Positions 13,594 through 30,811 of a stretch of 36,435 nt of DNA are shown one piece after another. Numbering within the stretch: position 1 is the first letter of the stretch; every line of letters begins with the position of its first letter. The notes beneath the pieces were generated by a model, which worked only from the letters and a program-made list of their open reading frames with translations, searched no databases and was not told the DNA's origin. The stretch comes from Pseudomonadales bacterium. Its GTDB lineage: Bacteria > Pseudomonadota > Gammaproteobacteria > Pseudomonadales > Pseudohongiellaceae. The DNA lies in the NCBI GenBank assembly GCA_028281635.1, contig JANQJM010000256.1:1-36435 (forward strand), given 5' to 3'. A program made the position numbers and the translations under genes.

Positions 13594-14685
13594 TCAACTA
13601 ACAGCAGCCGCATAGCCCACCTGGGCTTTGGTTTTTCGAATTCGGTTGAACGGCATTTCCACAAAGCGAAAAGACAACTCAGTCACAAATAAAATGGCAA
13701 CCAATGCAATCGCTGCAGAAAGCAGTGTTGGTAAACTCTCAAGCCACTGTGAAAAATACAAAAACACTGGAAGGTGCCAGAGGTACATACCATAGGATCG
13801 CGTTCCCAGATAGCGTAACCAATGCCATTCCAGCCACGATTGCTGGGTCGAGTCCTGTTGCATACAAGTCGTTATCCAAAGCACAGCCAGGACATTTAAC
13901 ATCAGGGTACCGTACTGATAATAAAAGCCCTGCCTTGCATCCAGCATATAAATCAACAGCAAGTAGGCAAACAGTGTTGCTAATCTGACTGTTGATGCAC
14001 GGGCTTTAAAATCAATCTGCTTATAGCGCCAAAGAAATGCAGCCAAGCTACCAGCACAGAATCCGTCGATGCGCATATCGGTGCGCAGATAGAGCTGCAA
14101 CCAGCTATCCACACCTTCCCATAGCTTTAATCGCAATAAGGCAACACTAAAGACAATAAGCAATAGCAAAATTACTGCTAGTTTTGGAGAGAGCAAACGC
14201 AGAATTACTAACAAAACGAAGGGCCAAAAAATATAGAATTGCTCTTCGATAGACAGCGACCACAAATGCCCAAAGGCTTCTGGGGTCTGTAAGGTGAAAT
14301 AAACCATCCAGTTATGGAAATAGAAAAGCACCGAGAAAAAGAAACGACCACTGCCCTGCAACTCGCCGGTAACTGCGAATACAAATGCCATAACCATAAG
14401 AAAAACTGCCAGGGCTGGAATCAGGCGCAACGCTCGCCGCAAGTAAAATTTTCCAATGTGCAATGATTGCCGCGCCTCGAATTCCTGCAGGCTCAAGTAA
14501 GTAATAAGAAACCCGCTTAGCACGAAGAAGAGATCGACACCCAGAAAACCACCAGCAACCAGAGGCAGGTAGTCAGTGAAGAAATAGAAAAACAGGTGGT
14601 AGACGAGAACGGAAAGAATCGCGACGCCCCGCAGGCCATCCAGGCCTGCTATATGTCGCGAATTGTGCACAGATGAAGTTGTCAA
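13594..14685 (-). CDS. Membrane acyltransferase, OafA/YrhL family (acyltransferase 3)
   Basis: This ~363-aa inner-membrane protein has about ten hydrophobic segments. It opens HIAGLDGLRGVAILSVLVYHLFFY, with the family's essential His, then FLGVDLFFVLSGFLITYLSL and HLWSLSIEEQFYIFWP, all hallmarks of acyltransferase 3. These proteins O-acetylate or otherwise acylate sugars at the membrane. It lies 1.1 kb from a sulfotransferase gene and the large glycan locus, so it may decorate the same polysaccharide, but the secreted-protein gene lies between. The start is uncertain: TTG at 14685 or GTG at 14670, neither with a good ribosome site. Confidence 0.88.
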   Translation of the reverse strand: MTTSSVHNSRHIAGLDGLRGVAILSVLVYHLFFYFFTDYLPLVAGGFLGVDLFFVLSGFLITYLSLQEFEARQSLHIGKFYLRRALRLIPALAVFLMVMAFVFAVTGELQGSGRFFFSVLFYFHNWMVYFTLQTPEAFGHLWSLSIEEQFYIFWPFVLLVILRLLSPKLAVILLLLIVFSVALLRLKLWEGVDSWLQLYLRTDMRIDGFCAGSLAAFLWRYKQIDFKARASTVRLATLFAYLLLIYMLDARQGFYYQYGTLMLNVLAVLWITTCMQQDSTQQSWLEWHWLRYLGTRSYGMYLWHLPVFLYFSQWLESLPTLLSAAIALVAILFVTELSFRFVEMPFNRIRKTKAQVGYAAAVS

Positions 14686-15808: not shown

Positions 15809-16582
15809 CTACTGCGCCAACTCTTTTAGTGCTGTGTAGAGCTCATCTACCTCGGGACTTAAGGCCAGCTGCCCCAGGTCGTCCTGGTTCACCAGCGCTG
15901 CATCGTAAAAGTCAATTCGCTCAGGTTGCGGCAGATCCAGAGATTGAGCCAGATTGCGAACACTGTGCAGCATATCGATTTCAGCGGGAGCGAAATGCAG
16001 CAGCGGAAATGGGGCTTGCTTCAATAAACTCAGAAGTCTTGTGTTGTAGTCCACCCACAGACTCAATCCCGCCTCAAATGACAGATTCTCATTACGCGCA
16101 TTGATTGACCGCGCCACCAGAGCCGGATGTCGAAAAATCCCGACAAACTCAAGCTGAGGCAGGAGTTGCTGCCAGCCCTCAAGCGTTATCAAGACCCGGG
16201 GATCTTTGAAACCCCAACAAGAAAAGTCAGCATATTGCGCAACAATGTCCCTACCCTGTTGCAGCTGCGCCTCACTCCAGACAATTTGTTCCGGAGGTTG
16301 ATGCCAGCTACCTTGATTGGAATCCAGCACCCAATCATTGAGCTGCATAATCTGCGGATTCTCTCGATTGCCTTTTTTGTTGTGGGGATTGGCCTCATGC
16401 ACCCGATGCAATTCCAGCCCAGCTTGCTGCAGTGAACCGGTCAAGTAACTAGTGCCGCTGCGATGCATTCCCAATATGCAGATCACTCTGCTTTTCTCTC
16501 CAGTCGAAGCTTTGCTGGATTGAGTGTTCAAACCTTGGAAATTCCGTCGTTGCAGCCACTTTTTCAGGCTGGGTATAATCAT
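15809..16582 (-). CDS. Sulfotransferase family protein 1
   Basis: This 257-aa protein has the PAPS-binding 5'-phosphosulfate loop ICILGMHRSGTSYL (GMHRSGTS, residues 38-45) and a 3'-phosphate-binding-like segment FVGIFRHPALVARSINAR. GFKDPRVLITLEGW lies between them and recurs in the related protein at 18172. The longest frame begins at 16663, but the ATG at 16582 has GGAG 6 nt upstream and avoids overlap with the exporter gene on the other strand. These enzymes transfer sulfate from PAPS to a sugar or protein hydroxyl or amine. It diverges from the polysaccharide ABC exporter operon with 62 bp between, so a glycan acceptor is inferred. Confidence 0.85.
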   Translation of the reverse strand: MIIPSLKKWLQRRNFQGLNTQSSKASTGEKSRVICILGMHRSGTSYLTGSLQQAGLELHRVHEANPHNKKGNRENPQIMQLNDWVLDSNQGSWHQPPEQIVWSEAQLQQGRDIVAQYADFSCWGFKDPRVLITLEGWQQLLPQLEFVGIFRHPALVARSINARNENLSFEAGLSLWVDYNTRLLSLLKQAPFPLLHFAPAEIDMLHSVRNLAQSLDLPQPERIDFYDAALVNQDDLGQLALSPEVDELYTALKELAQ

Positions 16583-16644
16583 CCACGCTCCGCTTTTAGC
16601 CGCACGGCATGCTAATCGATCCCCAGAGACCTTGTAAACGCTAG

Positions 16645-17418
16645 ATGTTTTTCCGCCTGCCATTCAAGTATCTAGATTTCATCTGGTATCGATCACTTGC
16701 ACAACTGCGCAGCGAATCTTCACGAGCCTACCTGGGCTATCTCTGGTGGGTGCTGGAACCCGCCCTTTATCTTCTGGTTTTTTATCTGGTGTTTGCCCTG
16801 GTTCTCAATCGCGGCGACGAAAACTATGTACGCGTCCTGCTAATTGGGCTGGTGGTTTTTAAATGGTTTGACAGTGCCGTGCGCTCATCGATGGACGTGA
16901 TTCAACAGAACGCAGGCCTGATTGACAAAGTATATTTGCCAAAGATTGTTTTTCCGGCAGTCAATGTAGTTAGCAACGGTATAAAATTTGCCGTTGTGTT
17001 CCTGTTGTTCTCGCTGGCGAATATCGCTATAGCTGGAATCAACCCTGCGAGTTTGCTGTTTCTTCCGGTGCTGCTGGGTATCCACTTTGCTCTGGTGATG
17101 GCCGGTGCCTGCCTGGTGGCAGCAATTACGCCATTTATTCCGGACCTGCGCATGGTCTTCGACAAGTTGATGACTCTGCTTTTTTTCCTTTCTGGAATAT
17201 TCTTTACTGCCGATTCCATTCCAGAGTCCTTCAGGGGGATCTTCCTTGCCAACCCCTTGTTCGCTCTTATAGAAAGCTACCGAACACTGTTAGTGCTTCA
17301 GGAAATACCGGCATTACTCCCACTCGTCTATGTGTTGATGCTTGCGCTGATATTGCTGATGATTGCCAGCTATCTACTCCACCGTTTCGATCGCGTCTAT
17401 CCGCGACTAATCTATTAA
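16645..17418 (+). CDS. Polysaccharide ABC exporter permease (Wzm/TagG type)
   Basis: This 257-aa ABC-2-type permease has about six membrane segments. The N-terminal amphipathic part YRSLAQLRSESSRAYLGYLWWVLEPALYLLVFYLVF is typical of Wzm, KpsM and TagG proteins. Further signatures are VFKWFDSAVRSSMDVIQQNAGLIDKVYLPK and, near the C-terminus, FLSGIFFTADSIPESFRGIFLANPLFALIESYR. With the next gene it would form the inner-membrane exporter moving a lipid-linked polysaccharide to the periplasm. It is the first gene of an eight-gene plus-strand operon whose gaps are 11 bp or less. No strong ribosome site precedes the ATG. Confidence 0.92.
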   Translation: MFFRLPFKYLDFIWYRSLAQLRSESSRAYLGYLWWVLEPALYLLVFYLVFALVLNRGDENYVRVLLIGLVVFKWFDSAVRSSMDVIQQNAGLIDKVYLPKIVFPAVNVVSNGIKFAVVFLLFSLANIAIAGINPASLLFLPVLLGIHFALVMAGACLVAAITPFIPDLRMVFDKLMTLLFFLSGIFFTADSIPESFRGIFLANPLFALIESYRTLLVLQEIPALLPLVYVLMLALILLMIASYLLHRFDRVYPRLIY

Positions 17419-17429
17419 GCTCTTAACCG

Positions 17430-18167
17430 ATGGTAGACACACTAATCTCACTAAAAGACGTAGGTGTCTGCTACCGCTCACATCACTTACTGCACACACG
17501 CAAAGAATCCTGGGCACTGCGACAGGTGAACCTCGATTTACACAAGGGCGAGACACTGGGCGTAATTGGCCGCAATGGCGTGGGGAAGTCGACTCTGCTG
17601 AAGATTTTGGCGGACATTATTCAACCAGATCGCGGACAGATAGAGCGTGTTGCTTGCAGGAGCACTCTGCTGTCGCTGAGAGTAGGTTTTCTCAACCATC
17701 TCGATGCCAGAGAAAATGCTACTATGGCTGGAATGCTGCTTGGCTTAAGCAGAGCAGAAATAGAGGCTAAAATCCCTGAAATACTTAGCTTCGCAGAATT
17801 AGAGGAACAGCATAAAGTGCCAATTGGCACCTATTCTACTGGTATGGTAGCAAGGCTTGGATTTTCAATAGCGATGCAAATAGACCCGGAAATCTTGTTG
17901 ATCGATGAGATGCTGGCGGTAGGTGATGCCAGTTTCCGGCAGAAGTCTTCAGCCGCGTTACGCCAACGCATGCAATCGGACAAGACAGTAGTACTGGTTG
18001 CTCACAACGAACAAGTGATAAGCCAGCTATGTAATCGTGTCGCCTGGATAGAAAACGGCGAAACCCGAGCACTGGGAAACCCGGACGAAGTTCTGGCCGA
18101 ATATCGCGATCATCTGAAGGTAATGAGCTCTCCTGCTCAGGGCACAGCGGGGCCGATGCGCAACTAA
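17430..18167 (+). CDS. Polysaccharide ABC exporter ATPase (Wzt/TagH type)
   Basis: This 245-aa ATPase partners the permease 11 bp upstream. Walker A is GRNGVGKST, the signature helix YSTGMVARLGFSIA and Walker B EILLIDEMLAVGD, followed by the switch His in VLVAHN. The first strand segment ISLKDVGVCYRS and the GVGKSTLLKILA run are standard for the Wzt/KpsT/TagH group. It is a short form that ends soon after the nucleotide-binding domain, without the C-terminal carbohydrate-binding domain that in some Wzt proteins reads the chain cap. Export here is therefore probably not gated by cap recognition through Wzt. Confidence 0.93.
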   Translation: MVDTLISLKDVGVCYRSHHLLHTRKESWALRQVNLDLHKGETLGVIGRNGVGKSTLLKILADIIQPDRGQIERVACRSTLLSLRVGFLNHLDARENATMAGMLLGLSRAEIEAKIPEILSFAELEEQHKVPIGTYSTGMVARLGFSIAMQIDPEILLIDEMLAVGDASFRQKSSAALRQRMQSDKTVVLVAHNEQVISQLCNRVAWIENGETRALGNPDEVLAEYRDHLKVMSSPAQGTAGPMRN

Positions 18168-18171
18168 TTCC

Positions 18172-19293
18172 ATGCCAGAAGAAAAACACATAGTCCTGGT
18201 TTTAGGCATGCACCGCAGCGGCACTTCCATGATTGCCGAAGCACTGGCAAGCGGCGGCCTGCATGTTGCAAGCAAGTTGATAGCTGCTGATCCGCAGATC
18301 AATGCTCGAGGTTACTGGGAAGATGAGGAGCTGGTTGCGATCAACGAAGACCTGTTCGCAAGTCTGCAAAGTAGCTGGTTTGACTTGCAGCCACTAGCGG
18401 AAAATTTCTGGAAATCCCCCGAACTTGATTCTTTGCGAGAACGCGCAAAGTCTCATTTACACAAGGAGTACGGCGCAGCTGAGACCGCAGTGATTAAAGA
18501 TCCCCGGCTCTCCATATTGTTACCCTTCTGGCTGCCGTTGTTTGCTGAACTTGGCTTCAATGTCTCAGCACTCATTGTTAGTCGGCACCCCCTGGCAATC
18601 GCCGCTTCCTTAGCACGCCGCGACCAACTGCCACAGGACTACTCCTTACTGCTATGGCTTAAATATCAAAGAGAACTGGCGAAATACAGCAGCAAGTTCG
18701 ATTCAGCATTGATCGAGTACGATGCCGCACTACAAGATCTTGTAGGCACGATTAATACTGCCCTGCAGTCCTTACCAGGAAATCCGCCTATCAAGGCTAT
18801 CGATCTCGCTATAGCAGATGTGAGCTTGCAGCACTGCAAGGCGAATTCCGAAGCAGCAGGCTCAATAGCCAAGCGGGTAGTCGACTGCTATCAACAACAA
18901 CTGCAAGGTAACAACGTTGATTGGGAAAGCGTGTCGGCTCTGGACGCTGAAGATTACACTCAATTGCTAAGCAACATGGCAATGGATCTGGTTCGCAGCT
19001 CAGGTAAACAGGTTGAAATTGGCGAATTGCACTCTTATGCCCAGAAGATTGTTCAGCAACGAGATCTGGAACTTTCAGCAGCTAATTCGTCCTTAAAAGA
19101 TCAAGGTAAACTGCTCCAACATGCGGAAAACGTCGTATTAGAGAGAGACCAGCAGCTAAAAGAAGCTGCTACTGTGTTATCTGAAGCCCGGGAACAGCGT
19201 GACGAGATGGAAAGACGCCTTTCTGGACTCTATAAAAGACTGCAGGCCTCAATTATTGGTAGACTTGCCTTGCGGCTGATCGATAGGAAGTAG
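18172..19293 (+). CDS. Sulfotransferase family protein 2 with C-terminal coiled coil
   Basis: This is a 373-aa protein. The N-terminal ~230 residues are a sulfotransferase domain: VLVLGMHRSGTSMIAEAL (5'-phosphosulfate loop, GMHRSGTS at residues 12-19), then VIKDPRLSILLPFW and a 3'-phosphate-type segment SALIVSRHPLAIAASLARR. It is related to the protein ending at 15809, which shares GMHRSGTS and KDPR. From about residue 285 to 350 there is a charged heptad-like helix (VQQRDLELSAANSSLKDQG, then ERDQQLKEA and EQRDEMERRL), predicted to be a coiled coil, followed by a basic tail. The coiled coil may tether it to the exporter or other enzymes. It starts 4 bp after the ATPase gene. Confidence 0.85.
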   Translation: MPEEKHIVLVLGMHRSGTSMIAEALASGGLHVASKLIAADPQINARGYWEDEELVAINEDLFASLQSSWFDLQPLAENFWKSPELDSLRERAKSHLHKEYGAAETAVIKDPRLSILLPFWLPLFAELGFNVSALIVSRHPLAIAASLARRDQLPQDYSLLLWLKYQRELAKYSSKFDSALIEYDAALQDLVGTINTALQSLPGNPPIKAIDLAIADVSLQHCKANSEAAGSIAKRVVDCYQQQLQGNNVDWESVSALDAEDYTQLLSNMAMDLVRSSGKQVEIGELHSYAQKIVQQRDLELSAANSSLKDQGKLLQHAENVVLERDQQLKEAATVLSEAREQRDEMERRLSGLYKRLQASIIGRLALRLIDRK

Positions 19294-19300
19294 AATCTAT

Positions 19301-20284
19301 ATGGAAAGTAACCGGCGAAATCTCGCAGGAGTATTGTTTGTTGGAAGCATCATCCTGATTGATGGCTTTATTCTGGTGGAGCAAGACGCAGCCCCCGAAG
19401 ATATGGTGTGGATAGAACCGGGTACGTTCACTATGGGATCAGATCGCGGAATGCCTGACGAGCGCCCCGCCCGCCCGGTTGAGATGTCCGGCTTCTGGAT
19501 TGATACCCACGAAGTTACTAATACCGAGTTCCAGACCTTTATTGAAGATACGGATTACATCACAGAAGCCGAACGCTACGGCGACTCTCTGGTGTTCAGT
19601 AAAGTCGCTGCATCCTCCTTACAGGAGTTGGTGCCTCTTAGTTGGTGGAAGCTTGTAGGCGATGCCGATTGGCGCCACCCGGAGGGCCCACAAGATTCCA
19701 TATCCGCCAAACAAGATCACCCGGTAGTACAAGTCAGTTATGCCGATGCACTGGCTTATTGCAATTGGCTGGATAAAACACTTCCTACAGAAGCGCAGTT
19801 CGAGTTCGCCGCCCGCGGCGGAAAAGAAGGTAATCAATACAGTTGGGGCAATCAGCCTATTACTCACGAACATGCTCATACCAATCACTGGCAGGGTGAG
19901 TTTCCATTGCACAACGATAATGAAGACGGCTTTGAGTCCACTGCACCCGTAGGTAGTTTTCCTGCCAATGATTTCGGTCTTTACGATATCTCTGGCAATG
20001 TATGGGAATGGGTTTCGGACTGGTACCACCCGCGCTCATATGAGCTGGATAGCAATCGCAATCCTACTGGAGTTAAACGCGAAGATAGTTTCGATCCCAA
20101 TGAACCCGGATTAGCCAAACGCAGCATTCGTGGCGGTTCATTTCTCTGTAGTGAAAACTATTGTCGTGGATTTCGTGTGAGTGCGCGTATGCCTGCCGAC
20201 CCGGCGACAGCAACAAACCATACCGGCTTTCGTTGTGTAAATCCAAATCGCAGCAACAGTATTGCTTCACTGTGGCTCAATTGA
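19301..20284 (+). CDS. Formylglycine-generating enzyme (SUMF1/FGE type) with N-terminal export segment
   Basis: This 327-aa protein of the FGE-sulfatase superfamily turns the active-site Cys of sulfatases into formylglycine using oxygen. Landmarks are MVWIEPGTFTMGSDRG, GFWIDTHEVTNTEFQTFI, LPTEAQFEFAARGG, GLYDISGNVWEWVSDWY and near the end GGSFLCSENYCRGFRVSAR. The two Cys (283 and 288, spaced as C-x4-C) match the pair that binds copper in true FGEs and is missing in many superfamily relatives. Before the domain is a positively charged start and a hydrophobic stretch (residues 8-26), read as a signal anchor or signal peptide. The two sulfatases downstream are the obvious substrates. AGGAAG precedes the ATG. 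The next gene overlaps its 3' end or begins a few bases after it, depending on that gene's start. Confidence 0.92.
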   Translation: MESNRRNLAGVLFVGSIILIDGFILVEQDAAPEDMVWIEPGTFTMGSDRGMPDERPARPVEMSGFWIDTHEVTNTEFQTFIEDTDYITEAERYGDSLVFSKVAASSLQELVPLSWWKLVGDADWRHPEGPQDSISAKQDHPVVQVSYADALAYCNWLDKTLPTEAQFEFAARGGKEGNQYSWGNQPITHEHAHTNHWQGEFPLHNDNEDGFESTAPVGSFPANDFGLYDISGNVWEWVSDWYHPRSYELDSNRNPTGVKREDSFDPNEPGLAKRSIRGGSFLCSENYCRGFRVSARMPADPATATNHTGFRCVNPNRSNSIASLWLN

Positions 20285-21044
20285 AAATTCTGTGCGCCTT
20301 ATTGAAGACTACTCAACGATCTATCAGCTTGCAGATGATCTGAGTATTGGCTACGAGCAGGACCCCCCTTTTCCGCATTGCGTTATAGAAGATCTCTTCA
20401 ATCAGGAAGTACTTGAAATAGTCCTGGCTGATTTTCCGCGTCCTGAAGAACAAAAAAACTGGCGCACGATCCACGCCCAACGATTTGGGCAGGATATGCA
20501 ATTCAACAAACTGGGGCTGGCAGAAGAATTGGAATGGCCAGACTCTATACGGCGACTCATTCACGAACTCAACTCCGGTCCCTTTCTACATTTTCTGGAA
20601 AGACTTACGGGTATTGAAAAGTTGTTGCCCGACCCGCGAACTCGCGGCGGCGGAATACACCAGGTTGTAAATGGTGGCCTACTCGGCGTGCATGCTGACT
20701 TTACTGAACATCGCATATATGGATTCGATAGACGAGTCAACTTGTTGCTCTATCTAAACCATGATTGGCAGGACGAGTGGGAGGGGCATTTAGAACTGTG
20801 GACTACTGACGTCAGCCGTTGTGAAAAAAGATTAAGACCAAACTTTGGACGCTGCGTAATTTTCAACACAGACGCCAAATCTTTTCACGGTCATCCAGTA
20901 CCTCTTAACTGTCCTGAAGAGGTGACGCGCAAATCGATTGCACTTTACTATTACACGATTGGGCGTGAAGGCACGCAGGTAGAGCACACCTTTCAAACAG
21001 ATTGGCAGCAATTGCCGGAAACAGAAAAACCTGAACCACAATGA
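20262..21044 (+). CDS. 2-oxoglutarate/Fe(II)-dependent oxygenase (prolyl-4-hydroxylase-like)
   Basis: This protein of up to 260 aa has the double-stranded beta-helix iron site: His144 and Asp146 in LGVHADFTEH, the distal His209 in KSFHGHPVPL and Arg223 in TRKSIALYYY for 2-oxoglutarate. The GRCVIFNTD strand before the distal His is typical of the PF13640-type group. It opens with a short helical part containing PPFPHCVIEDLF. The start may be TTG at 20262, overlapping the FGE gene by 23 bp, or GTG at 20292. Its end overlaps the sulfatase start as ATGA. The substrate is unknown; hydroxylation of a sugar, lipid or peptide are all possible. There is no signal peptide, so it acts in the cytoplasm. 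Confidence 0.85.
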   Translation: MLHCGSIENSVRLIEDYSTIYQLADDLSIGYEQDPPFPHCVIEDLFNQEVLEIVLADFPRPEEQKNWRTIHAQRFGQDMQFNKLGLAEELEWPDSIRRLIHELNSGPFLHFLERLTGIEKLLPDPRTRGGGIHQVVNGGLLGVHADFTEHRIYGFDRRVNLLLYLNHDWQDEWEGHLELWTTDVSRCEKRLRPNFGRCVIFNTDAKSFHGHPVPLNCPEEVTRKSIALYYYTIGREGTQVEHTFQTDWQQLPETEKPEPQ

Positions 21045-22912
21045 AAACCCACCCAACCAGTTTCAGTCTGATTGCTCTGTTCTGTTTCTTGCTGATGGGT
21101 TGTGCATCAGAATCGCCAAGTAATGTTCTGATATTGTTCCTGGATGACTTCGGTTACGGTGATCTGGCAATTAATCGACCGGCCAATGACACAGCGATAC
21201 CGGCATCAACTCCAAACCTGAATCAATTTCATAGTGAGAGTCTCGTCTTCACACGACATTACACAGAAAGCACTTGCTCTCCAAGCCGAGCAGCGCTGCT
21301 GAGTGGTCGCTACCCTTCCCGCTTTGGATTTACGGCGAACGGACGGGGATTACCTCCTGATATCACCACCTTGCCAGAAGCGTTTAGCAATGCAGGCTAT
21401 CAGACTCATTTTATCGGCAAATGGCATCTTGGACACACCACCGAACTGGCACATCCCGAACATCAGGGATTTGACACCTGGCTTGGCTTTCTGAACCAGT
21501 GGATGCTGAGGGATTCCTATTCAATGGAAACTAACAACCTTACGCGCCCCACCTATATTGATCCCTGGCTAATGGATGAGTCAGGAAAAACAACGCAGCA
21601 CCAGGGGTATCTTACAGACATTTTAACAACGGAGGCTGTGGAGTTTATCGAAGCCAAAGAGGAATCCAATGAACCGTGGTTTTTACAGGTTTCCTATTTC
21701 GCTCCCCATGAACCGGTAGAGGCAGCACCGAGATATCTGGAAAACTATCCAGACACTCAGCAAGGCGCTTATCTGGCCTTGCTGGAACAACTCGATGGAA
21801 ACATTGGTAGAATTCTTCGAGCCCTTGAAGACGCCGCACTAGCAGACAACACACTGGTTGTAATTGTCAGCGATAACGGCGGCACTGAGCAACGTTACCC
21901 AAGTAACTCACCCTACTTCGGCATAAAAGCAACCTACACGGAAGGCGGTGTGAGAACCCCCTTAATGATTCGATGGCCAGACGGAAGCTTCAGTGGCTCA
22001 AGCTATGGCCATCCAGTAAGCCTTATGGACTTGTATCCGACTCTTCTGGCCGCTAGCGGTGTGAAAGGTGCACACGAAGACCTGGATGGTGAAAACTTAT
22101 TGCCTTACGTTGAAGAGAATGTGGAGCTAAGGCGACCTCTTTATTGGGAATCCTTCGGAAATGACAATTACTTCTTTAGTGTACTGGACGAAACACACCG
22201 TTACCGCTATAGCGAAGGGCTTCTCGGTAGCGATGTACTCATGGATCTTGAACGAAACGAGTTCGGCAAGCCTGATAGCTTAGTTGAAGACCCTGGCGTA
22301 GTCAGTCAGCTCAGAAGTGATTATCTGCAATGGCGCGAAGAGACTCATGCACTGAGAATTGAATACCAAGCAATAAATGAAAGCGGGCTAGCGATTCTCT
22401 CGGGAGATGCCTTGCAACGCAGCCCAGGCCATGGCGGCTTTACCTTCGGCATCGGAGTGGAAGCAGTGGAGAGTACAAGCAACACTATCCAGCAGATTGC
22501 TTACCAAAGTGACTTGCTTGACGTACATTTAGAAAATGGCCTTCTCAACATCACCGTCCAGGATGCCACTTTCTCAGCACCTTTTCCTGCGGATGAACAG
22601 TGCCATAGCATTATCCTGACTGCGCAATTTGAAGCCCGCATCTCATGGCTGCTCAGCAATCTAGACATGCAATCGCCGATTCAGCTACTGATTGATGGAG
22701 AAGTAGTAAGTGAAGTAATTGATGGGAGAGAACTGCCAAAAAATGCCGATCTGGAGGCGCCAACCTATATCGGCTATAGACCTTCAGCCACGCAACAAAA
22801 CGTGTTTGACGGTCAGCTATCAGAACCTGTTTTTTACAATCATCGAGTCTACCCAAACGCGATTAATTCTCAGCCCGGCGCAGAAAGACTCGCCTCATTG
22901 CTCTGCCCATGA
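21041..22912 (+). CDS. Type I sulfatase, lipoprotein
   Basis: This is a 623-aa lipoprotein. LLMGC (Cys21) is the lipobox, and Ala at +2 predicts outer-membrane sorting. The sulfatase domain follows: metal site FLDDFGYGDL (Asp35, Asp36), formylglycine site Cys79-Ser-Pro-Ser-Arg83 in STCSPSRAALLSGRYPSRFG, then FIGKWHLGH, YFAPHEPV and VIVSDNGGTEQ, with KATYTEGGVRTPLMIRWP after. Beyond about residue 470 is an extra ~150-residue beta-rich domain resembling a LamG/concanavalin-type fold, which could bind glycan. CxPxR makes it a substrate for the FGE two genes upstream. It would remove sulfate esters from a surface or external glycan. The start overlaps the oxygenase stop (ATGA). Confidence 0.93.
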   Translation: MKTHPTSFSLIALFCFLLMGCASESPSNVLILFLDDFGYGDLAINRPANDTAIPASTPNLNQFHSESLVFTRHYTESTCSPSRAALLSGRYPSRFGFTANGRGLPPDITTLPEAFSNAGYQTHFIGKWHLGHTTELAHPEHQGFDTWLGFLNQWMLRDSYSMETNNLTRPTYIDPWLMDESGKTTQHQGYLTDILTTEAVEFIEAKEESNEPWFLQVSYFAPHEPVEAAPRYLENYPDTQQGAYLALLEQLDGNIGRILRALEDAALADNTLVVIVSDNGGTEQRYPSNSPYFGIKATYTEGGVRTPLMIRWPDGSFSGSSYGHPVSLMDLYPTLLAASGVKGAHEDLDGENLLPYVEENVELRRPLYWESFGNDNYFFSVLDETHRYRYSEGLLGSDVLMDLERNEFGKPDSLVEDPGVVSQLRSDYLQWREETHALRIEYQAINESGLAILSGDALQRSPGHGGFTFGIGVEAVESTSNTIQQIAYQSDLLDVHLENGLLNITVQDATFSAPFPADEQCHSIILTAQFEARISWLLSNLDMQSPIQLLIDGEVVSEVIDGRELPKNADLEAPTYIGYRPSATQQNVFDGQLSEPVFYNHRVYPNAINSQPGAERLASLLCP

Positions 22913-24324: not shown

Positions 24325-24332
24325 GTGCGAGC

Positions 24333-25298
24333 ATGTTCAGGAAGAAGATCAACAACCCGAAACTGTCTGTCATTGTCGTTTTTTACGACATGCCAAAACA
24401 GGCGCTCAATACCTTGTTCACTCTCAGCACAGACTTCCAACAAGAGGTAGGACCAGATGATTACGAAGTTATCGCTGTTGAAAACAGATCAGACAATCCG
24501 ATTGATCAGGACGCTCTGACAGAGCTGAAAGGCAACTTTCGCTATTTTCTGCGCGATGAAACATTGCCTACACCGGTGAATGCAATCAATTTTGGTGTCG
24601 AACAGGCCCTGGGTAAACAGGTCTGTATCATGGTTGATGGCGCACGCATGGTGAGTCCCAGGCTTATTCACTTCAGCATGATAGCAGCCAGGCTGTATCC
24701 ACAAGCGGTAATCTCTGTTCCGGGCTACCACCTTGGAGAGAAACTGCAACAGGAGGCAGTTAGCGATGGCTACAATGAATCGGTTGAGCAAGAATTACTC
24801 GCCAGCGTTCCCTGGCGGGAAGATGGCTACCGCTTGTTCGATATCAGCTGCCTTAGCGGCACCAGTCGCAATGGCTATTTTGAACCCATGGGTGAGAGCA
24901 ACACACTTACTGTACCCAGATCCCTGTTCGACGCTGCGGGCGGATTCGATACTCGCTTCACCGAGACCGGAGGTGGCCAGTGCAATCTTGATTTTTACAA
25001 GCGTGTGGTCGAGCTTCCGGAAACCAATCTAGTAATGCTAATGGGAGAGGGATCGTTTCATCAGTTTCATGGCGGGGTCACCACAGGCAGAGAGACCGGA
25101 GAGCAACGAGACAGGACCATGAACGAGCATTTTGCTCAGTATCGGGAAATTCGCGGCGATTCCTATTCGCCACCACAGAAAACTGCAACTCTGCTGGGGG
25201 AAGTGCACCCGTCACTGCTTAAATTCGTACACCACTCGGCTCAGTTTTCCCGCTACAAACGAGGCGAAATCCAGCCGGATACTAAAGACCAGGAATAG
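24333..25298 (+). CDS. GT2-like glycosyltransferase
   Basis: This is a 321-aa cytoplasmic GT-A-fold protein. The N-terminal LSVIVVFYDMPKQALNTLFTLS is the nucleotide-sugar-binding strand of family 2 enzymes. NFRYFLRDE, NAINFGVEQALGKQVCIMVDGARM and the later MGESNTLTVP and MGEGSFHQFHGGVTTG follow. The DxD-type metal site is represented by VDGAR, an atypical form. It is closely related to the C-terminal half of the protein encoded at 26066-27841, sharing YDM, NFRYFLR, YHLG and GSFHQFHGGVT. AGGTAGG lies upstream of the ATG and the gene is 9 bp after the second sulfatase, at the end of the operon. Confidence 0.85.
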   Translation: MFRKKINNPKLSVIVVFYDMPKQALNTLFTLSTDFQQEVGPDDYEVIAVENRSDNPIDQDALTELKGNFRYFLRDETLPTPVNAINFGVEQALGKQVCIMVDGARMVSPRLIHFSMIAARLYPQAVISVPGYHLGEKLQQEAVSDGYNESVEQELLASVPWREDGYRLFDISCLSGTSRNGYFEPMGESNTLTVPRSLFDAAGGFDTRFTETGGGQCNLDFYKRVVELPETNLVMLMGEGSFHQFHGGVTTGRETGEQRDRTMNEHFAQYREIRGDSYSPPQKTATLLGEVHPSLLKFVHHSAQFSRYKRGEIQPDTKDQE

Positions 25299-25308
25299 CG
25301 ATGGGCTC

Positions 25309-26061
25309 TTAACCCTGATCCTGCGCCTGCCTGAGCTCTAACTCTTTACGCAGCCTTTTATCCCGCCTCACCGCTTCATGGCTCTTGCTCAAGTGCACAT
25401 AGAGCCTGCGCAATCGCTCGGACGTTTCATCGTTGCCTTCAAACAGCAACTGCTCGAGTTCGGTTAGCGATCTTCCTCCCGGCTTCCGCAATACGCCAAG
25501 ACCATAACCGTGGCGAAAAGTGAAAGTATCATGCTGCTGTTGCAGTTCGTCCCACAAATTGCGTACACCATAGTCCGGGAGTCTTGCCTCTATATCGTGA
25601 AACAACAGAATGCCACCAGGCGCCAGTTTGGGATACCAGGTGTCAAAATCGTGCTTCACTGCCTGGTAAGTATGCAAGCCATCTATATGCAGTAGTTCTA
25701 TCGATTCGTCATCGTATTGAGCCACCGCATCATCGAAGCGCATGCGTAATAGATAGGTGAAACCGCGGTAATGCTCCCGGGCGTGGTCTCTTACTTTGCT
25801 GAAAATCTCTTCATCATAAGCCCCAGTGTGCTCGTCTCCTTCCCAGGTATCCACTGCATAGGCGGTAGACTCGATGCCATGCTCCTGCACTGCCTGGCAG
25901 AAAGTGAAAAATGAAAGGCCAGAATAAGTTCCTAACTCGACAATTAATCGTGGTCGGATTGCTGCAACGATGTCATAGCCAAACGGCATATGGTCTATCC
26001 AGGTACTCAGAACGATGTGCCTGGCTTCGAAATCCAAAGATAGAGGAAGGTATACGGGCAT
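25309..26061 (-). CDS. Class I SAM-dependent methyltransferase (Methyltransf_24 type)
   Basis: This is a 250-aa cytoplasmic protein. Motif I is LIVELGTYSGLSFFTF, followed by AYAVDTWEGDEHTG, ELLHIDGLHTYQAVKHDFDTWYP and PGGILLFHDI, the layout of Methyltransf_24 or CmcI-like O-methyltransferases often found in glycan clusters. Asp and His in HIDGLHTY are typical metal-linked residues of the group. The last ~40 residues (SKSHEAVRRDKRLRKELELRQAQ) are a charged helix, probably coiled coil. The gene is the last of the minus-strand operon, 4 bp after the tandem glycosyltransferase, and ends 10 bp from the stop of the convergent operon. A sugar-methylating role is inferred. Confidence 0.85.
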   Translation of the reverse strand: MPVYLPLSLDFEARHIVLSTWIDHMPFGYDIVAAIRPRLIVELGTYSGLSFFTFCQAVQEHGIESTAYAVDTWEGDEHTGAYDEEIFSKVRDHAREHYRGFTYLLRMRFDDAVAQYDDESIELLHIDGLHTYQAVKHDFDTWYPKLAPGGILLFHDIEARLPDYGVRNLWDELQQQHDTFTFRHGYGLGVLRKPGGRSLTELEQLLFEGNDETSERLRRLYVHLSKSHEAVRRDKRLRKELELRQAQDQG

Positions 26062-26065
26062 GCTG

Positions 26066-27841
26066 TTACTTATCGTCTGACCAGACTTGATCCAGTCTGT
26101 CCTTAAAATTGTCGAACCGTTTTAGCATTCTATAGGAAGAGAACTCAAGGTATTTGCGGGAGTGCCTGGTGATCGATCCGATTACCAGTGGATTACGCTC
26201 CAAAAAGTGATAGCTCTGATTCCAACGCTCATGCAGTTCCTCCTTGAAATCGCTGGTAAACTCCGCTCGCGTCTTGTTAGAGGTGACACCTCCATGAAAC
26301 TGATGAAAACTTCCCTCGCCCAGTAAACACAGATAGTCAACTTCTGGATAGATACCTAACTTGCGCACTAAATCCAAATTGAGCGAACCCGCACCCGCTT
26401 GCTGATAACGTTCATCGGCGCCGCCAATCGCTGTGAAAAGCTCTTGGCTTGCGAAGTAGCAGTTCGACTCCATAATCGGCGCCAGGAAGCCGCGGGGATT
26501 TGCCCCGCACAGCGACGAGATAGAAAACAGTGCATAACCATTCGATTGCCAGTCAATGTCGTCTAATAGCGCTTGCTGCTGCTCTTCGTTGTAACCCTGC
26601 TGAGTACTGAGATGCTGTTCGTCCGGACCTAGATGGTAAGTAGGTACGGTGACGAATGGTCGCTCAGAAAGTCGCAAGGCAATCATGGCAGTGTGCAGCA
26701 CACCCGGCGTCAGCATATGAGCCGCATCGACCATCAAACCAATATATTCACCTTTCGCCTCAGCCAATCCAAAATTAATGGCCGCCGCCGGGCTTTGAGA
26801 AAGTTCCTCTCTCAGGAAGTAACGAAAATTACCAGGCAGACTTCTCCGCGTTTCACTATCCAGTGGGCGATCTGAGTCATTTTCAATTAGCAGCACTTCG
26901 TAGTCCGATTGCTTTACGCCCAACTGATAGTCGGCGCTCAAACTGGCAATCGTGTTAGGCAACTGTTGCTGCATATCATAGGCGACTACCAGCAAACTTA
27001 GCTTCGGCTTGTTTGCATCAAGAAGCGAGCCAGAAGTTTGCTCGAGTGCGTAAGGCAAATCAGTGTCTGCAGTGTTGCTAATGATCTTGTATAACGAGCT
27101 GTGAACCTGTCGTCCGAATTGACCGAACAGACGTGGGACTGTGGATGCCGATGTTAACGTCCCGTGAATCTGCCAATCTCTCGCCACAGCAGCTTCGGCT
27201 GGCAACAGAAACACCGCACGCTGCCGCTGGAAGTGTTGACGCACGTGATCATAAAACTGCAACTGCTCCAGCTCGCTTAAGTCTCCAGAATCTATGATTG
27301 CCGTTTGCAAACTGTGTTTGCTGAAAAAGACTGGGGCCAAAGTCTGAGGCAGCTCCTGGAACCTGGTCCAAGCTGCTGGTTGTAAACTTTCGTCCTGAAA
27401 AAAATTATATTTTTCAATAAGTTGTGGAGTCGATTTTGAATTCGAAACATAACTCGGAACGATTACGGCTGCCTCCGGGAAAGCCTCAAGCACTCTGATC
27501 GCATCGGGAATCACCCCTGGAGAGAGAAAACACTCTGTTGTTGGTAACAGACCGATGATCGATCCTTGGCTCAGGGCGAGCGCTGTTTCGATCTGTTCGG
27601 AATAAGAACTGTCAGCATCTGAAAAAACTGACCAGCTAATGAATGAAAAACCAGCAAGCTCGCGCTCAAATTCCTGGTGCTGCTCCTCATTCGCAACAAT
27701 CACCAGCTCAAAGTCAGAATCACTCGCCTCAAAATAGCTCTGTAGCAATTCAAAACAACTGGTTTCAAGGTTCCGCCCAAGAGCAACTTTAGCAATAAGA
27801 CTCAGCCGACAATTTTCAACTTGTCTGGAACTGGTAGCCAT
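26066..27841 (-). CDS. Tandem GT2-like glycosyltransferase
   Basis: This is a 591-aa protein with two GT-A-like halves. The first (residues ~10-265) is degenerate: it has the strand DFELVIVANEE and the segment GSIIGLLPTTECFLSPGV, where the DxD position reads PTTE, so it may be non-catalytic. The second half (from ~275: KLSLLVVAYDMQQQLPNTIASLS) closely matches the separate 321-aa protein at 24333, including NFRYFLREE, AAINFGLAEAKGEYIGLMVDAAH, YHLGPDEQ and GEGSFHQFHGGVTS. It overlaps the sulfotransferase gene upstream by 26 bp and precedes the methyltransferase. It probably adds a sugar to the glycan made by this locus. Confidence 0.85.
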   Translation of the reverse strand: MATSSRQVENCRLSLIAKVALGRNLETSCFELLQSYFEASDSDFELVIVANEEQHQEFERELAGFSFISWSVFSDADSSYSEQIETALALSQGSIIGLLPTTECFLSPGVIPDAIRVLEAFPEAAVIVPSYVSNSKSTPQLIEKYNFFQDESLQPAAWTRFQELPQTLAPVFFSKHSLQTAIIDSGDLSELEQLQFYDHVRQHFQRQRAVFLLPAEAAVARDWQIHGTLTSASTVPRLFGQFGRQVHSSLYKIISNTADTDLPYALEQTSGSLLDANKPKLSLLVVAYDMQQQLPNTIASLSADYQLGVKQSDYEVLLIENDSDRPLDSETRRSLPGNFRYFLREELSQSPAAAINFGLAEAKGEYIGLMVDAAHMLTPGVLHTAMIALRLSERPFVTVPTYHLGPDEQHLSTQQGYNEEQQQALLDDIDWQSNGYALFSISSLCGANPRGFLAPIMESNCYFASQELFTAIGGADERYQQAGAGSLNLDLVRKLGIYPEVDYLCLLGEGSFHQFHGGVTSNKTRAEFTSDFKEELHERWNQSYHFLERNPLVIGSITRHSRKYLEFSSYRMLKRFDNFKDRLDQVWSDDK

Positions 27842-28574
27842 AGACCTTCATCAAGTCACCGCATTGCTTATGAATAAATTCCAGATCATCAAGGGAAAGT
27901 AAATCCTTGTAGCGATTCTTTTCTTCATGAACCGGCAGAGATTTCAAATCAAGCACAAGCGGTTTTTCTTCCAGGTAGGAGAGTAACTTATCGACTTTCT
28001 GTTGAGGTTGCTCAACCAGATCTTCATAGCCGATTTCAATCAAGCGATCTGGGAAACCCTGCTTAAACTGTTGCACGATGGACAGACTCTCTGTCCAGAA
28101 ATTTACAGCACCCCTAATTTCCTGTGAGTTCATCATTCTGCCCGCTTTCAAACTGGCAACAACATTATAGGGGTGGCGATGAATATGAATGAACCTGGAT
28201 TCAGGATAGGCAGCAGAAATCAGCAAAATACCATAAACATTCTGCGGAGTTTTATCGAACCAACGGTTAGCCCCCTTGCCCCTCGCCTCAAGAAACAAAC
28301 GGGCATAGTGGTCCATCAACTCACGCCTGTTGGCTGCGTTGTGCATGGTGTAAAAGAAATCGAAGTTCTCAACCCCATCCAGTTGTCGATGCTTTTTGAA
28401 CAGCGCTTTGCGGGCGTAGTTCTTTTCATAGACATCGGTACCGAAAGGGTCGGACCAGCGAAAAAAATGCGTTTCTTCAGGACAGTCAAGATTAGGATGT
28501 TGTCTAAGAAGATCGCGCAACAGTGTAGTGCCGGATCGCACACTACCAACAATGAAAAATGGGATACAACTCAT
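27816..28574 (-). CDS. Sulfotransferase family protein 3
   Basis: This 252-aa protein has the PAPS loop FFIVGSVRSGTTLLRDLLRQH (GSVRSGTT, residues 9-16), the acceptor-side PEETHFFRW, FDKTPQNVYG and the 3'-phosphate-binding segment FIHIHRHPYNVVASLKAGR. A C-terminal EIGYEDLVEQPQQKVDKLLSYL is standard for the Sulfotransfer_3 group. ATG at 28574 starts directly before the domain; a GTG at 28616 would add 14 residues, and neither has a good ribosome site. It differs clearly from the two other sulfotransferases here, which share GMHRSGTS, so a separate acceptor position is likely. It sits inside a glycosyltransferase operon. Confidence 0.88.
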   Translation of the reverse strand: MSCIPFFIVGSVRSGTTLLRDLLRQHPNLDCPEETHFFRWSDPFGTDVYEKNYARKALFKKHRQLDGVENFDFFYTMHNAANRRELMDHYARLFLEARGKGANRWFDKTPQNVYGILLISAAYPESRFIHIHRHPYNVVASLKAGRMMNSQEIRGAVNFWTESLSIVQQFKQGFPDRLIEIGYEDLVEQPQQKVDKLLSYLEEKPLVLDLKSLPVHEEKNRYKDLLSLDDLEFIHKQCGDLMKVYGYQFQTS

Positions 28575-28639
28575 TGGATTGTTTCGAAACCGAACAGCAT
28601 AGCGCTGTTTCCTCACACACTCTGCAGGCGTGTTGAAAG

Positions 28640-30811
28640 TTACTCGTGCAGCGGTCTGGTGGACAGCTTACGTTTTACATTGCGTCTTATCCACATGGGA
28701 ATAAGATTGGCGATGTGCCCGAACAGGCGATGGCTATTTAGCCAGACCAGTGCACGATAGAAACGACGATTTACCGTAGAGGCTTCAGGTAACTCCATAA
28801 GCCAGTGGCTCATCAAGTGTTTGGCATCTACCCTCTCAAACTCAGGAATGATTCCGGGGTGTATATAGTCCTCGCGATAGGAAAACAGCGTACTGGGTTG
28901 ACTCAACCAGGATCTGGACTCGTTATGCAATATGAGTTCATGTCTTATTGATTCCAGCCTGGCCAACCATTGCTCCGCATCCATATCCCAATCTTCGATC
29001 CAGGTGTGCGGCCGATTATGCAATCTCTCCGCGAAGGAGCCGATGTTGGGACAAGCCACTGGCAATCCACTTTCCAGCGCATTGCTCAATGTATAACTAT
29101 AGGTTTCCGGCCAGGTGCAGGGAAACCAAATGAGGTCCGGCTTGGCTTGCCGTAACAGTGCTTTCACATCTTCATCTTTGTACGCACCTGTGGTGTGCAC
29201 AGTATTGGCCAGCTTTTTGTATGCGTATCCGATAAGCGTAAACTTAAGCGGTCGTTTTTGTCTGGCGGCGAGTTGGGAAACTCGTTCCAACATATTTGCG
29301 CCTTTGATAACACCGAGTGCCCCCATCACAACTACATGCATAGGTTCATCACCCTCCCTAACCCGCGGGTGTACCGGAGGATAGGAGCCCATCAGCTCAT
29401 TGTCAGGATGGAATGCGCAGGTAATCTCCAACGAGGGGTGATACTGATTGTAGATGGCAGCAGCGGCATTGCTCGGCGCGATAACTCGCTTGGCACGCTT
29501 TAGCAGACTTTTCCATCGCTCTCGCCATTGTTCTGCATCGATGCCTTTAGGAAAGGGAATGGCATCGGCACTCATCGCATCACGGCTACGCCGTTCTGCA
29601 CAGAAATAGCCGCGCTTGTCCGCCAGCGCTGGATTTACATGCAGGAAATAATAGTCGTGCAGGGTAATGTCATAGGGGACATCAAGCAGTCTAAGCAAGT
29701 CATAGATGCGGTCTTCCCAACCTTTCACATGATGAATGTGAATGCGGGCCAGGGAGAGGGAGAAGAGGAAGTTCTTCAGCGCATGTAGCTCCTCAAAAGG
29801 AAACTCAAACAGACCACCCGCCGCAACATTTGGAAACACGAGTCGCATGCAGTTCGCTTGCGGAACCAGCATCGCATGTTGTTGACGACCACTGCTAAAC
29901 GCAGATAACTCCACAACATGTTTATCGGTCCCTCCACCAATACCATGGCTTATATGTAACACCATGGGCGTGCCTTGCTTGCTCCTCAATATTAACTCGG
30001 CAGCGAAGCGCCAGCATCTGGCAGGATCGTCTGCGATGTGTTGAGCTACTTCGGCATGATAGCTGGGATACTTGCGATCCAGGATCACCATCGCCTGTCG
30101 CACCAGGGCCTGTTTTTCTTCGCCAAAAGACACCGCACCGTGATGATGGACGTAGACATTAGTTGCCAACAGATGGGTGAAGTTAAGCGCAGAAGCCCGC
30201 CTACAAAAATCGTTCTCCTCACCATAGCCACGGCCATAAGTTTCCGCGTCGAACATACCAATGCGATCTATACATTCGCGTTTGATAAACATACAGAAAC
30301 CGACCGCCGTAGGAATCTGGATCGCTGGTGAATCTAATACAGCGAACGCATCGTCTATAGTCGCTACTGCAAAATCCTTATAAGCGTCGTTCGATTCACA
30401 AATGTTCGGCCAGCTACAGATCTCTGCGTTGTTTGAGAAAGGCGTAACCGTTGCGATGTTAGAGCTGGTATAAGCGTGTTTGACAATCCTATCCAGCCAA
30501 TCATTGGCCACCAGAGTATCGCTATTGAGAAGCAACACATCCCTGTTATTGCGTTGAATTCCGCGGTTTATGCAACGCACGAACCCAAGGTTGGTGTCGT
30601 TAATGATAAGGGTAATTTTTTTCTGGCTGGCAAGTTCAAGCAGCCGATCTCGCAGCAACAGATCAGGCCCGGCGTCAAAGATTACGACTACTTCTGCACG
30701 AGTGGTGAGTCTGGGAAGGGATTCACATACACTCTCAATACAAGCAAGGGTTTCATTAGTTCCAGCATAAACTGGAATGACAATATCTACTTTATTCTTC
30801 TTGCTATCCAC
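28640..30811 (-). CDS. Bifunctional GT2-GT4 glycosyltransferase
   Basis: This is a 723-aa fusion with a GTG start. Residues ~8-250 are a family 2 (GT-A) domain: VDIVIPVYAGTNETLACIES, NLGFVRCINRGIQRNNRDVLLLNSDTLV (metal site NSD), and later GRGYGEENDFCRRA (ExD-type base). Residues ~280-680 are a family 4 (GT-B) domain: VLHISHGIGGGTDKHVVEL, then VVMGALGVIKGANMLERV and WFPCTWPETYSYTLSNALESGLPV. In the last, the usual second Glu of EX7E is Asn. Such fusions would add two sugars, one inverting and one retaining, to a growing chain. It is the first glycan gene of the minus-strand run and lies 38 bp after the acyl-CoA dehydrogenase gene, with no visible terminator between. Confidence 0.88.
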   Translation of the reverse strand: MDSKKNKVDIVIPVYAGTNETLACIESVCESLPRLTTRAEVVVIFDAGPDLLLRDRLLELASQKKITLIINDTNLGFVRCINRGIQRNNRDVLLLNSDTLVANDWLDRIVKHAYTSSNIATVTPFSNNAEICSWPNICESNDAYKDFAVATIDDAFAVLDSPAIQIPTAVGFCMFIKRECIDRIGMFDAETYGRGYGEENDFCRRASALNFTHLLATNVYVHHHGAVSFGEEKQALVRQAMVILDRKYPSYHAEVAQHIADDPARCWRFAAELILRSKQGTPMVLHISHGIGGGTDKHVVELSAFSSGRQQHAMLVPQANCMRLVFPNVAAGGLFEFPFEELHALKNFLFSLSLARIHIHHVKGWEDRIYDLLRLLDVPYDITLHDYYFLHVNPALADKRGYFCAERRSRDAMSADAIPFPKGIDAEQWRERWKSLLKRAKRVIAPSNAAAAIYNQYHPSLEITCAFHPDNELMGSYPPVHPRVREGDEPMHVVVMGALGVIKGANMLERVSQLAARQKRPLKFTLIGYAYKKLANTVHTTGAYKDEDVKALLRQAKPDLIWFPCTWPETYSYTLSNALESGLPVACPNIGSFAERLHNRPHTWIEDWDMDAEQWLARLESIRHELILHNESRSWLSQPSTLFSYREDYIHPGIIPEFERVDAKHLMSHWLMELPEASTVNRRFYRALVWLNSHRLFGHIANLIPMWIRRNVKRKLSTRPLHE

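Follow-up and report, generated by a model that had tools for sequence, protein, structure and literature searches.

We describe a gene cluster on a 36,435 bp stretch of DNA from a Pseudomonadales bacterium (hereafter the window, which is one whole contig, G000:C173; the draft genome spans 4.24 Mb in 257 contigs and is 86% complete). The cluster joins three sulfotransferases, a Wzm/Wzt-type polysaccharide exporter and glycosyltransferases with a formylglycine-generating enzyme (FGE) and two S1 sulfatases, here called SULF1 and SULF2. On balance we hold it probable that this locus would synthesize and export a sulfated surface glycan of the capsule or O-antigen type with built-in desulfation, such that the cell trims its own exported glycan. 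The evidence for this reading is the gene content, motifs and operon structure of the window, together with a recurrent link, across other genomes, between SULF1 and sulfotransferase or glycan clusters.

Sulfotransferases, an exporter and sulfatases in one gene cluster

Pfam scans of all 13 genes within positions 15809-30811 give the assignments below, in which ST stands for sulfotransferase, GT for glycosyltransferase, PAPS for 3'-phosphoadenosine 5'-phosphosulfate and 2OG for 2-oxoglutarate.

15809..16663, minus strand: ST1, PAPS-type sulfotransferase (Sulfotransfer_3 25.5 bits, cut-off 27; GMHRSGTS; family profile)
16645..17418, plus strand: Wzm/KpsM-like ABC-2 polysaccharide export permease (PF01061, ABC2_membrane, 41.6 bits)
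17430..18167, plus strand: Wzt/KpsT/TagH-like ATPase, 245 aa (PF00005, ABC_tran, 73.2 bits)
18172..19293, plus strand: ST2, sulfotransferase with a long C-terminal helix (no Pfam match; GMHRSGTS; family profile)
19301..20284, plus strand: FGE with an N-terminal hydrophobic segment (PF03781, 259.6 bits)
20262..21044, plus strand: 2OG-Fe(II) oxygenase (PF13640, 2OG-FeII_Oxy_3, 59.7 bits), probably glycan-modifying
21041..22912, plus strand: SULF1, S1 sulfatase, 623 aa, with a subfamily-specific C-terminal domain (PF00884, 197.1 bits; CSPSR; lipobox LMGC)
22909..24324, plus strand: SULF2, S1 sulfatase (PF00884, 128.3 bits; CTASR; lipobox LTAC)
24333..25298, plus strand: GT_A, GT2-type glycosyltransferase (PF00535, 22.7 bits, slightly under the cut-off of 23.3)
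25309..26061, minus strand: methyltransferase, Methyltransf_24 (PF13578, 98.0 bits)
26066..27841, minus strand: GT_B, glycosyltransferase (PF00535, 37.8 bits, residues 282-394 in the C-terminal half)
27816..28616, minus strand: ST3, sulfotransferase, remotely NoeE-like (PF13469, Sulfotransfer_3, 125.0 bits)
28640..30811, minus strand: GT_C, GT2 plus GT1-group double glycosyltransferase (PF00535, 39.1 bits; PF00534, 25.1 bits, cut-off 26.4)

An earlier note on this DNA had listed three sulfotransferases, Wzm/Wzt, a two-cysteine FGE, two lipobox sulfatases, three glycosyltransferase genes, a methyltransferase and a 2OG oxygenase, and Pfam, motifs and the ST family profile recover all of them. 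Its picture of two convergent, tightly spaced operons with one divergent gene also agrees with the gaps, which range from -26 to 23 bp. The plus-strand operon runs Wzm, Wzt, ST2, FGE, 2OG oxygenase, SULF1, SULF2 and GT_A, with successive gaps of 11, 4, 7, -23, -4, -4 and 8 bp, such that SULF1 shares 4 bp with the upstream 2OG gene and 4 bp with SULF2 downstream. The convergent operon comprises GT_C, ST3, GT_B and the methyltransferase (gaps of 23, -26 and 4 bp), and ST1 is divergent from the plus-strand operon. GT_B is kin to GT_A, their profiles matching one another. The exporter is an adjacent ABC-2 permease and export-type ATPase inside this GT cluster, with the NCBIfam equivalogs below cut-off (for Wzt the best are TagH at 165.8 and Wzt/RfbE at 161.6 bits). 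As the note had said, no glycoside hydrolase or SusCD-type gene is found among the 13 genes by Pfam, and the span lacks the SusCD-like pair with glycoside hydrolases or lyases that accompanies sulfatases in a polysaccharide utilisation locus.

SULF1 recurs with sulfotransferases and glycan clusters

Our comparison covers 194 genomes drawn evenly from the order (193 without the window's own). ST2-family genes occur in 37 of the 194 and SULF1 matches at E <= 1e-60 in 20, including two weak matches (G090 and G112, E ~1e-61) that by score are not members of the SULF1 subfamily. All 18 genomes with strong SULF1 matches (20 genes, E <= 1e-88, own genome included) are ST2-positive. With the own genome excluded, 17/17 strong-SULF1 genomes, spread over nine families, are ST2-positive against 36/193 overall (hypergeometric P 8.8e-15, ancestry ignored); adding the two weak genomes gives 18/19 (P 1.6e-14, ancestry again ignored). 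The earlier note had named sulfatases and FGE that occur without the sulfotransferases and exporter in relatives as a finding that would refute its proposal. The outcome on this point is mixed. At the genome level strong SULF1 is not found without ST2; the reverse dependence does not hold, as sulfotransferases and exporter occur without the sulfatases.

The link extends to gene position. Seven of the 19 SULF1 genes outside the own genome lie within 20 kb of an ST1 or ST2 match, with 0.41 expected (P 7e-8, using rounded genome sizes and ignoring contig ends). In a small control on 11 other sulfatase matches of the own genome (G000) and of G053, SULF2 aside and among the matches listed, no ST match occurs within 20 kb of any of them. 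A further sulfatase match of the own genome, G000:C12:7813-9174, has one TAG stop inside its frame.

Half of the SULF1 genes in the order draw (10/20) sit inside a cluster with Wzm/Wzt, GT_A/B, methyltransferase or sulfotransferase genes. These ten (the window, G064, G083, G097, G129, G133, G169, G193, G205 and G215) represent the own family and four others. G169 qualifies through an exporter plus GT and methyltransferase genes, with ST1/ST2 matches on another contig, and G215 through GT and methyltransferase genes and a Sulfotransfer_3 gene of another family. G064, G129 and G193, each assembled as a single contig, have a cluster that combines ST, Wzm/Wzt and SULF1 genes. Cluster labels in these other loci derive from profiles of homologues of the window genes, not from curated annotation, and other families are named where scanned. 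In G097, G205 and G129, as in the window, a 2OG gene directly adjoins SULF1.

Scanning another genome collection with the SULF1 alignment recovered at least two true members, L180 and L181, by SULF1 alone; the same collection scanned with the single SULF1 protein yielded no relative. L180, a Planctomycetota metagenome-assembled genome (MAG), has SULF1 near GT2, 2OG, ST1-family, methyltransferase, second sulfatase, carbamoyltransferase and radical SAM/SPASM genes. L181, a gammaproteobacterial MAG, has SULF1 with methyltransferase, GT_B, Wzt and Wzm genes, and no sulfotransferase on the stretch examined. In total, 12 of 22 SULF1 genes (L180 and L181 included, among the matches listed) lie in glycan clusters. 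One of the rest, in G053, shares 4 bp with a Sulfotransfer_3 gene, five lie outside clusters (the second G053 copy, G094, G104, G127 and G155) and four, on contigs <5 kb, are unplaceable (G063, G095, the second G127 copy and G148). Judged from these comparisons, the link between SULF1 and sulfotransferases goes beyond chance and appears to be general within the order.

We also note that SULF1 copies of G053, G127 and G155 outside clusters (L066, L123 and L124) share an LppC-type neighbour. RsmI likewise stands beside SULF1 in G053 and G127, with a sulfotransferase seen beside it in G053 only.

A distinct sulfatase subfamily

Both sulfatases of the window combine the PF00884 domain with the C-x-P/A-x-R motif of S1 sulfatases. 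The residue after the lipobox cysteine (Ala in SULF1, Lys in SULF2) would presumably direct both proteins to the outer membrane, if the Lol rule applies here as we assume. An alignment of 18 SULF1 relatives, the window's included, has the catalytic residues and a C-terminal extension common to all, and the catalytic Cys with its C-x-x-x-R frame is retained in 22/22 subfamily members.

In profile searches of the open reading frames collected, near-complete SULF1 members reach 662-824 bits and the two fragmentary ones 499 and 573 bits, against 341 for the best non-member sulfatase; cut copies of the window SULF1 gene score 351 and 374 bits. Most members were in the alignment behind this model, and four (L098, L129, L180 and L181) were not. 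A profile of the C-terminal part alone matches only subfamily members, and the subfamily forms a clade with support of 100/99 against three outgroups. Members from clusters and from elsewhere are intermixed in the tree, for which the label test left out the ten non-cluster rows. By these sequence measures SULF1 constitutes a distinct sulfatase subfamily with its own C-terminal domain, for which the predicted model is of low confidence. The best PDB match of SULF1 is the S1_19 kappa-carrageenan 4S sulfatase 6prm. By name, no Sulf endosulfatase is among the 60 best PDB matches of SULF1 or SULF2, the presence of a solved Sulf in that database being unchecked.

SULF2, whose best PDB match is an S1_8A enzyme followed by human SGSH, has eight relatives above 300 bits in five other genomes (G127, G155, G063, G053 and G039), four of which are both SULF1- and ST2-positive. 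Surface-glycan genes stand beside SULF2 relatives in four of six scanned loci (one each in G053, G063, G127 and G155), namely GtrII, FdtA/WxcM-hexapeptide, GT2, DegT or acyltransferase genes (L267, L268, L270 and L272). The G039 relative adjoins a phenol-hydroxylase-type gene and another sulfatase, the second G053 relative (C7) has no surface-glycan context, and the neighbours of two of the eight (L263 and L269) fell outside the Pfam scan. No ST1-3-type gene is labelled in the eight loci, where some contigs are short and other sulfotransferase families were not sought. Their neighbours indicate that the four loci are O-antigen-like, for surface-glycan synthesis and not for utilisation.

The sulfotransferases

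The three candidate PAPS-dependent sulfotransferases combine the domain with the RSGT loop, although ST1 falls below the domain cut-off and ST2 is assigned by the family profile only. ST3 is a clear Sulfotransfer_3 member with a NoeE score of 46.8 bits, below cut-off, and it matches the CurM sulfotransferase in PDB at E 6e-12. ST1 and ST2, weak by Pfam alone, belong to one family, whose 27-sequence profile has an invariant GMHRSGTS in the 5'-phosphosulfate-binding (5'-PSB) loop. With a limit of E = 1 this profile matches 39 PDB sequences, the best at E = 4e-4; of the 39, 36 are named sulfotransferase, two 'uncharacterized' and one 'polyketide synthase'. The predicted structure of ST2, made from 3 sequences, has a helix at 283-372 and a mean predicted local distance difference test (pLDDT) score of 61.6, and is too poor to decide the fold; in Foldseek this low-confidence model matches P-loop kinases at the top and sulfotransferases from rank 21, none better than E 0.001. 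An APS kinase is present in the genome bin, and PAPS can thus be made.

Two further observations concern this group. As listed, ST1 begins 19 bp inside the divergent Wzm gene, and its true start is therefore probably downstream; were ST1 to begin at the ATG 81 bp further on, ~60 bp would separate it from Wzm. ST2-family domains in relatives (L070, L072, L079 and others) often lie within proteins of 500 to >1300 aa.

Sulfatase maturation

The window FGE has the FGE-sulfatase domain, aligns with human SUMF1 (PDB 1y1e) at 256 bits and keeps both catalytic cysteines (GGSFLCSENYC). It is the only two-cysteine FGE found in the incomplete own genome, since the four other FGE-domain proteins of the bin lack the pair. 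The bin also holds seven SULF1 matches, the SULF1 gene included, and the window FGE may serve other sulfatases of the cell as well.

We rejected FGE as a constant partner of the system, as FGE relatives (E <= 1e-20) occur in 15/194 genomes of the order and only five of these, the own genome included, are ST2-positive. Among 20 genomes searched for PF03781 the two-cysteine motif is present in the own genome and G112 only; a fixed pattern finds it in none of the 17 other strong-SULF1 genomes, some of which are incomplete. The anaerobic sulfatase maturase model (TIGR03942) has no match above cut-off in the 20 genomes, the best being 169 of 349 bits in G169. This leaves 17 genomes (G053, G064, G097 and G193 among them) in which a cysteine-type SULF1 occurs without a recognised FGE or anaerobic maturase, and prompts one to ask how cysteine-type sulfatases mature in these genomes. 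The absence of the two-cysteine motif from the other SULF1 genomes suggests that FGE is a local addition in the window, outside the conserved pairing.

Two kinds of neighbouring gene were considered in this context. A radical SAM/SPASM gene overlaps SULF1 in G215 (L127:11585-12694) and another adjoins it in L180 (L180:12039-13370). The two are only remotely related to each other (31 bits); the G215 gene has stronger matches in other NCBIfam families (68 bits at best, below cut-off), and the L180 gene is identified by Pfam only. They are possible alternative maturases or glycan enzymes, the maturase role being a guess. The 2OG oxygenase, which adjoins SULF1 in four loci, is unlikely to be a sulfatase maturase, since G218, a genome of the same family, has 2OG without SULF1.

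Genomic surroundings of the cluster

To the left of ST1 on the contig lies an acyltransferase (Acyl_transf_3) at 13594..14685 on the minus strand (PF01757, 123.5 bits), which BLAST places together with genes of six further loci, the two scanned being Acyl_transf_3, and which is possibly part of the glycan locus too. A TonB-dependent receptor at window 2607-4844 is closest to the haem receptor PhuR (263 bits) and not to a glycan SusC. Misbinning of the contig was considered and is not supported, as the contig agrees with its bin in GC and tetranucleotide use: the cluster has a GC content of 0.494 and a tetranucleotide distance of 0.119, against 0.075-0.134 in 15 of the 16 own contigs compared and 0.263 in the remaining one (20 own-genome stretches, less four on contigs <5 kb).

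Proposed desulfation of the cell's own glycan and alternative explanations

In the mechanism that we propose, glycosyltransferases would build the chain on a lipid carrier in the cytoplasm, where ST1-ST3 would sulfate it from PAPS, and Wzm/Wzt would export the sulfated chain. The N-terminally anchored FGE would turn the active-site Cys of the two exported lipoprotein sulfatases into formylglycine, and these, attached to the outer membrane, would strip a subset of sulfates from the exported glycan, thereby setting or changing its sulfation pattern. We infer that the glycan is sulfated, that FGE and the sulfatases are placed as described and that the cell's own glycan is their substrate, the last because of genomic linkage, the gene overlaps and a span free of degradation genes. 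The co-occurrence of SULF1 and ST2 across genomes and the glycan-locus contexts of SULF1 and the SULF2 relatives fit desulfation of the own glycan, and lend support to this part of the earlier note's proposal.

Several observations weigh against this reading. Within the order, half of the other ST2 genomes (18/36) have no SULF1 match at E <= 1e-60, and 5/18 placeable SULF1 genes lie away from any cluster. Outside the order the link breaks down: ST2-family genes (E <= 1e-8) occur in 35/368 genomes, and SULF1 at E <= 1e-60 in 0/368 and thus in 0/35 ST2 genomes; this class-wide search of 369 genomes scored the best 3-5 candidates in each and its counts are lower bounds. Among solved structures, carrageenan sulfatases come closest to SULF1. 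A simple lipobox pattern is present in 6/22 SULF1 members and absent from 16/22, several of which show a hydrophobic N-terminus instead, and lipoprotein anchoring of SULF1 is therefore not universal. To these we add the missing two-cysteine FGE motif in the other strong-SULF1 genomes and the existence of the same operon without desulfation genes.

The latter case is G218, from another genus of the same family and the nearest relative that carries the core operon, in which ST1 is divergent from Wzm-Wzt-ST2-2OG-GT_A in an order identical to the window (identities of 46% for ST1, 51% for Wzm, 58% for Wzt, 35% for ST2, 60% for 2OG and 63% for GT_A). The surroundings include GT_C (51% identical to the window copy), ST3, methyltransferase and GT_B-like genes. 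There is no FGE between ST2 and 2OG and no SULF1-SULF2 between 2OG and GT_A, and the only sulfatase, a few kb off, is remote (24% identical over 389 residues). This colinear core implies that desulfation is dispensable, and that the desulfation genes either entered a core already in place or disappeared from it. The locus is also patchy, as the ST2 gene is found in 0/80 other genomes of the own genus and the cluster is not genus-conserved; surface-glycan loci are often patchy in distribution. On these sequence comparisons, desulfation appears as an optional module of a sulfated-glycan exporter, with FGE as a local addition. The full set listed in the earlier note is not supported as a conserved system, given a G218 locus without FGE, SULF1 and SULF2, 17 other strong-SULF1 genomes in which the two-cysteine motif was not found, and eight SULF2-relative loci with no labelled ST1-3-type gene; as far as our searches reach, the complete gene set is known from the own genome alone.

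The sulfatases might instead scavenge foreign sulfated glycans from algae or competitors, their operon position reflecting chance or co-regulation. This would suit the carrageenan sulfatases nearest to SULF1, the many other sulfatases in relatives (a match in 47/58 genus and order genomes) and the location of both G053 SULF1 copies outside a glycan cluster. The span has no glycoside hydrolase or SusCD-like gene, however, and the 17/17 co-occurrence with ST2, the 12/22 SULF1 genes within glycan clusters, the control sulfatases (0/11) and the surface-glycan synthesis context of 4/6 scanned SULF2-relative loci all point away from it, which makes scavenging unlikely, though by no means negligible. 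Desulfation could also be an obligatory biosynthetic step, in which sulfate serves as a transient mark or as a leaving group, or in which surplus sulfate is removed by proofreading before chain completion. Although the 4 bp overlap of SULF1 with the 2OG gene and their adjacency in G097, G205 and G129 would agree with such a step, sulfatases that carry export signals would reach the glycan only once Wzm/Wzt had exported it, and none of them is present in the core operon of G218; we consider it improbable.

Turnover or release is a related idea, with the sulfatases helping to dismantle the own coat for detachment or for recovery of sulfate and sugar. The lipobox of both sulfatases is compatible with it and the linkage evidence for an own-glycan substrate applies equally, yet no hydrolase or lyase for the glycan chain is present in the span, and we give this explanation a small chance. 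Finally, the proteins may be inactive or catalyse a different reaction of the alkaline phosphatase superfamily, with no sulfate removed. The lack of a two-cysteine FGE motif and of a TIGR03942 match above cut-off in the 17 other strong-SULF1 genomes is in its favour, but the catalytic Cys and its C-x-x-x-R frame kept in all 22 members, and the pairing of sulfatases with a two-cysteine FGE in the window, render it very improbable.

Comparison with known systems

Described bacterial sulfated-polysaccharide clusters, as represented in the parts of the literature consulted, carry sulfotransferases and no sulfatase. The synechan xss cluster of Synechocystis PCC 6803 directs a sulfated extracellular polysaccharide with two dedicated sulfotransferases, and its authors knew no other bacterial polysaccharide cluster with sulfotransferases (PMC8205485). 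It resembles the window in being such a cluster; in the text consulted 'Wzm' does not occur and 'sulfatase' occurs once, in a reference title (PMC8205485), whereas the window has Wzm and two sulfatases. Vibrio sp. KMM 8419 has a sulfated capsule of determined structure, with sulfotransferases, PAPS genes and ABC-transporter export (PMC11641403), and shares sulfotransferases and ABC export with the window, the word 'sulfatase' being absent from the main text of that paper (PMC11641403). Pontiella both degrades and produces sulfated glycosaminoglycan-like exopolymers and has a sulfotransferase inside a GT cluster (PMC7356697); unlike the window, its biosynthesis cluster has no sulfatase named in the text consulted, cluster figure legend included (PMC7356697). 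The consulted part of the Shark Bay mats paper likewise describes no sulfatase in a glycan biosynthesis cluster. By titles and the starts of abstracts in the open-access literature, subscription papers not included, we find no description of a sulfatase paired with a bacterial glycan biosynthesis cluster.

Among sulfatases, the S1_19 carrageenan enzymes (PDB 6prm and 9hh2) share the catalytic fold of the predicted SULF1 model, with TM-scores of 0.79 and 0.76 by target length. Their chains are ~450-480 residues long, and SULF1 differs in its additional C-terminal domain and its glycan-synthesis context. If SULF1 and its partners do edit the cell's own glycan, bacterial sulfatases could no longer be read by default as degradation enzymes, and the use of algal glycans may be overestimated from the number of sulfatases in marine genomes. 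The sulfation of the coat would then be a trait under regulation, with possible effects on phage adsorption, grazing and adhesion. The idea can be tested directly through SULF1 and the comparison with G218, where the operon stands without the desulfation genes.

The animal extracellular Sulfs edit heparan sulfate (PMC3890690, PMC7147386), and the likeness that we propose is desulfation of the own glycan after its synthesis. There is no sign that the window sulfatases belong with the Sulfs, as among solved structures SULF1 is nearest to S1_19 carrageenan sulfatases and SULF2 to S1_8 and SGSH. We tentatively put forward, as a broader view that we regard as possible but doubtful, that these loci are a bacterial counterpart of heparan-sulfate editing, in which transferable loci would set sulfotransferases against a dedicated exported SULF1 and tune the sulfation of the own coat after export, with interchangeable maturases (FGE here, perhaps radical SAM/SPASM in G215 and the Planctomycetota locus, none recognised elsewhere). 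By analogy, the window and its relatives suggest that some bacteria may trim the sulfated coat that they make themselves, in much the way that animal cells treat heparan sulfate.

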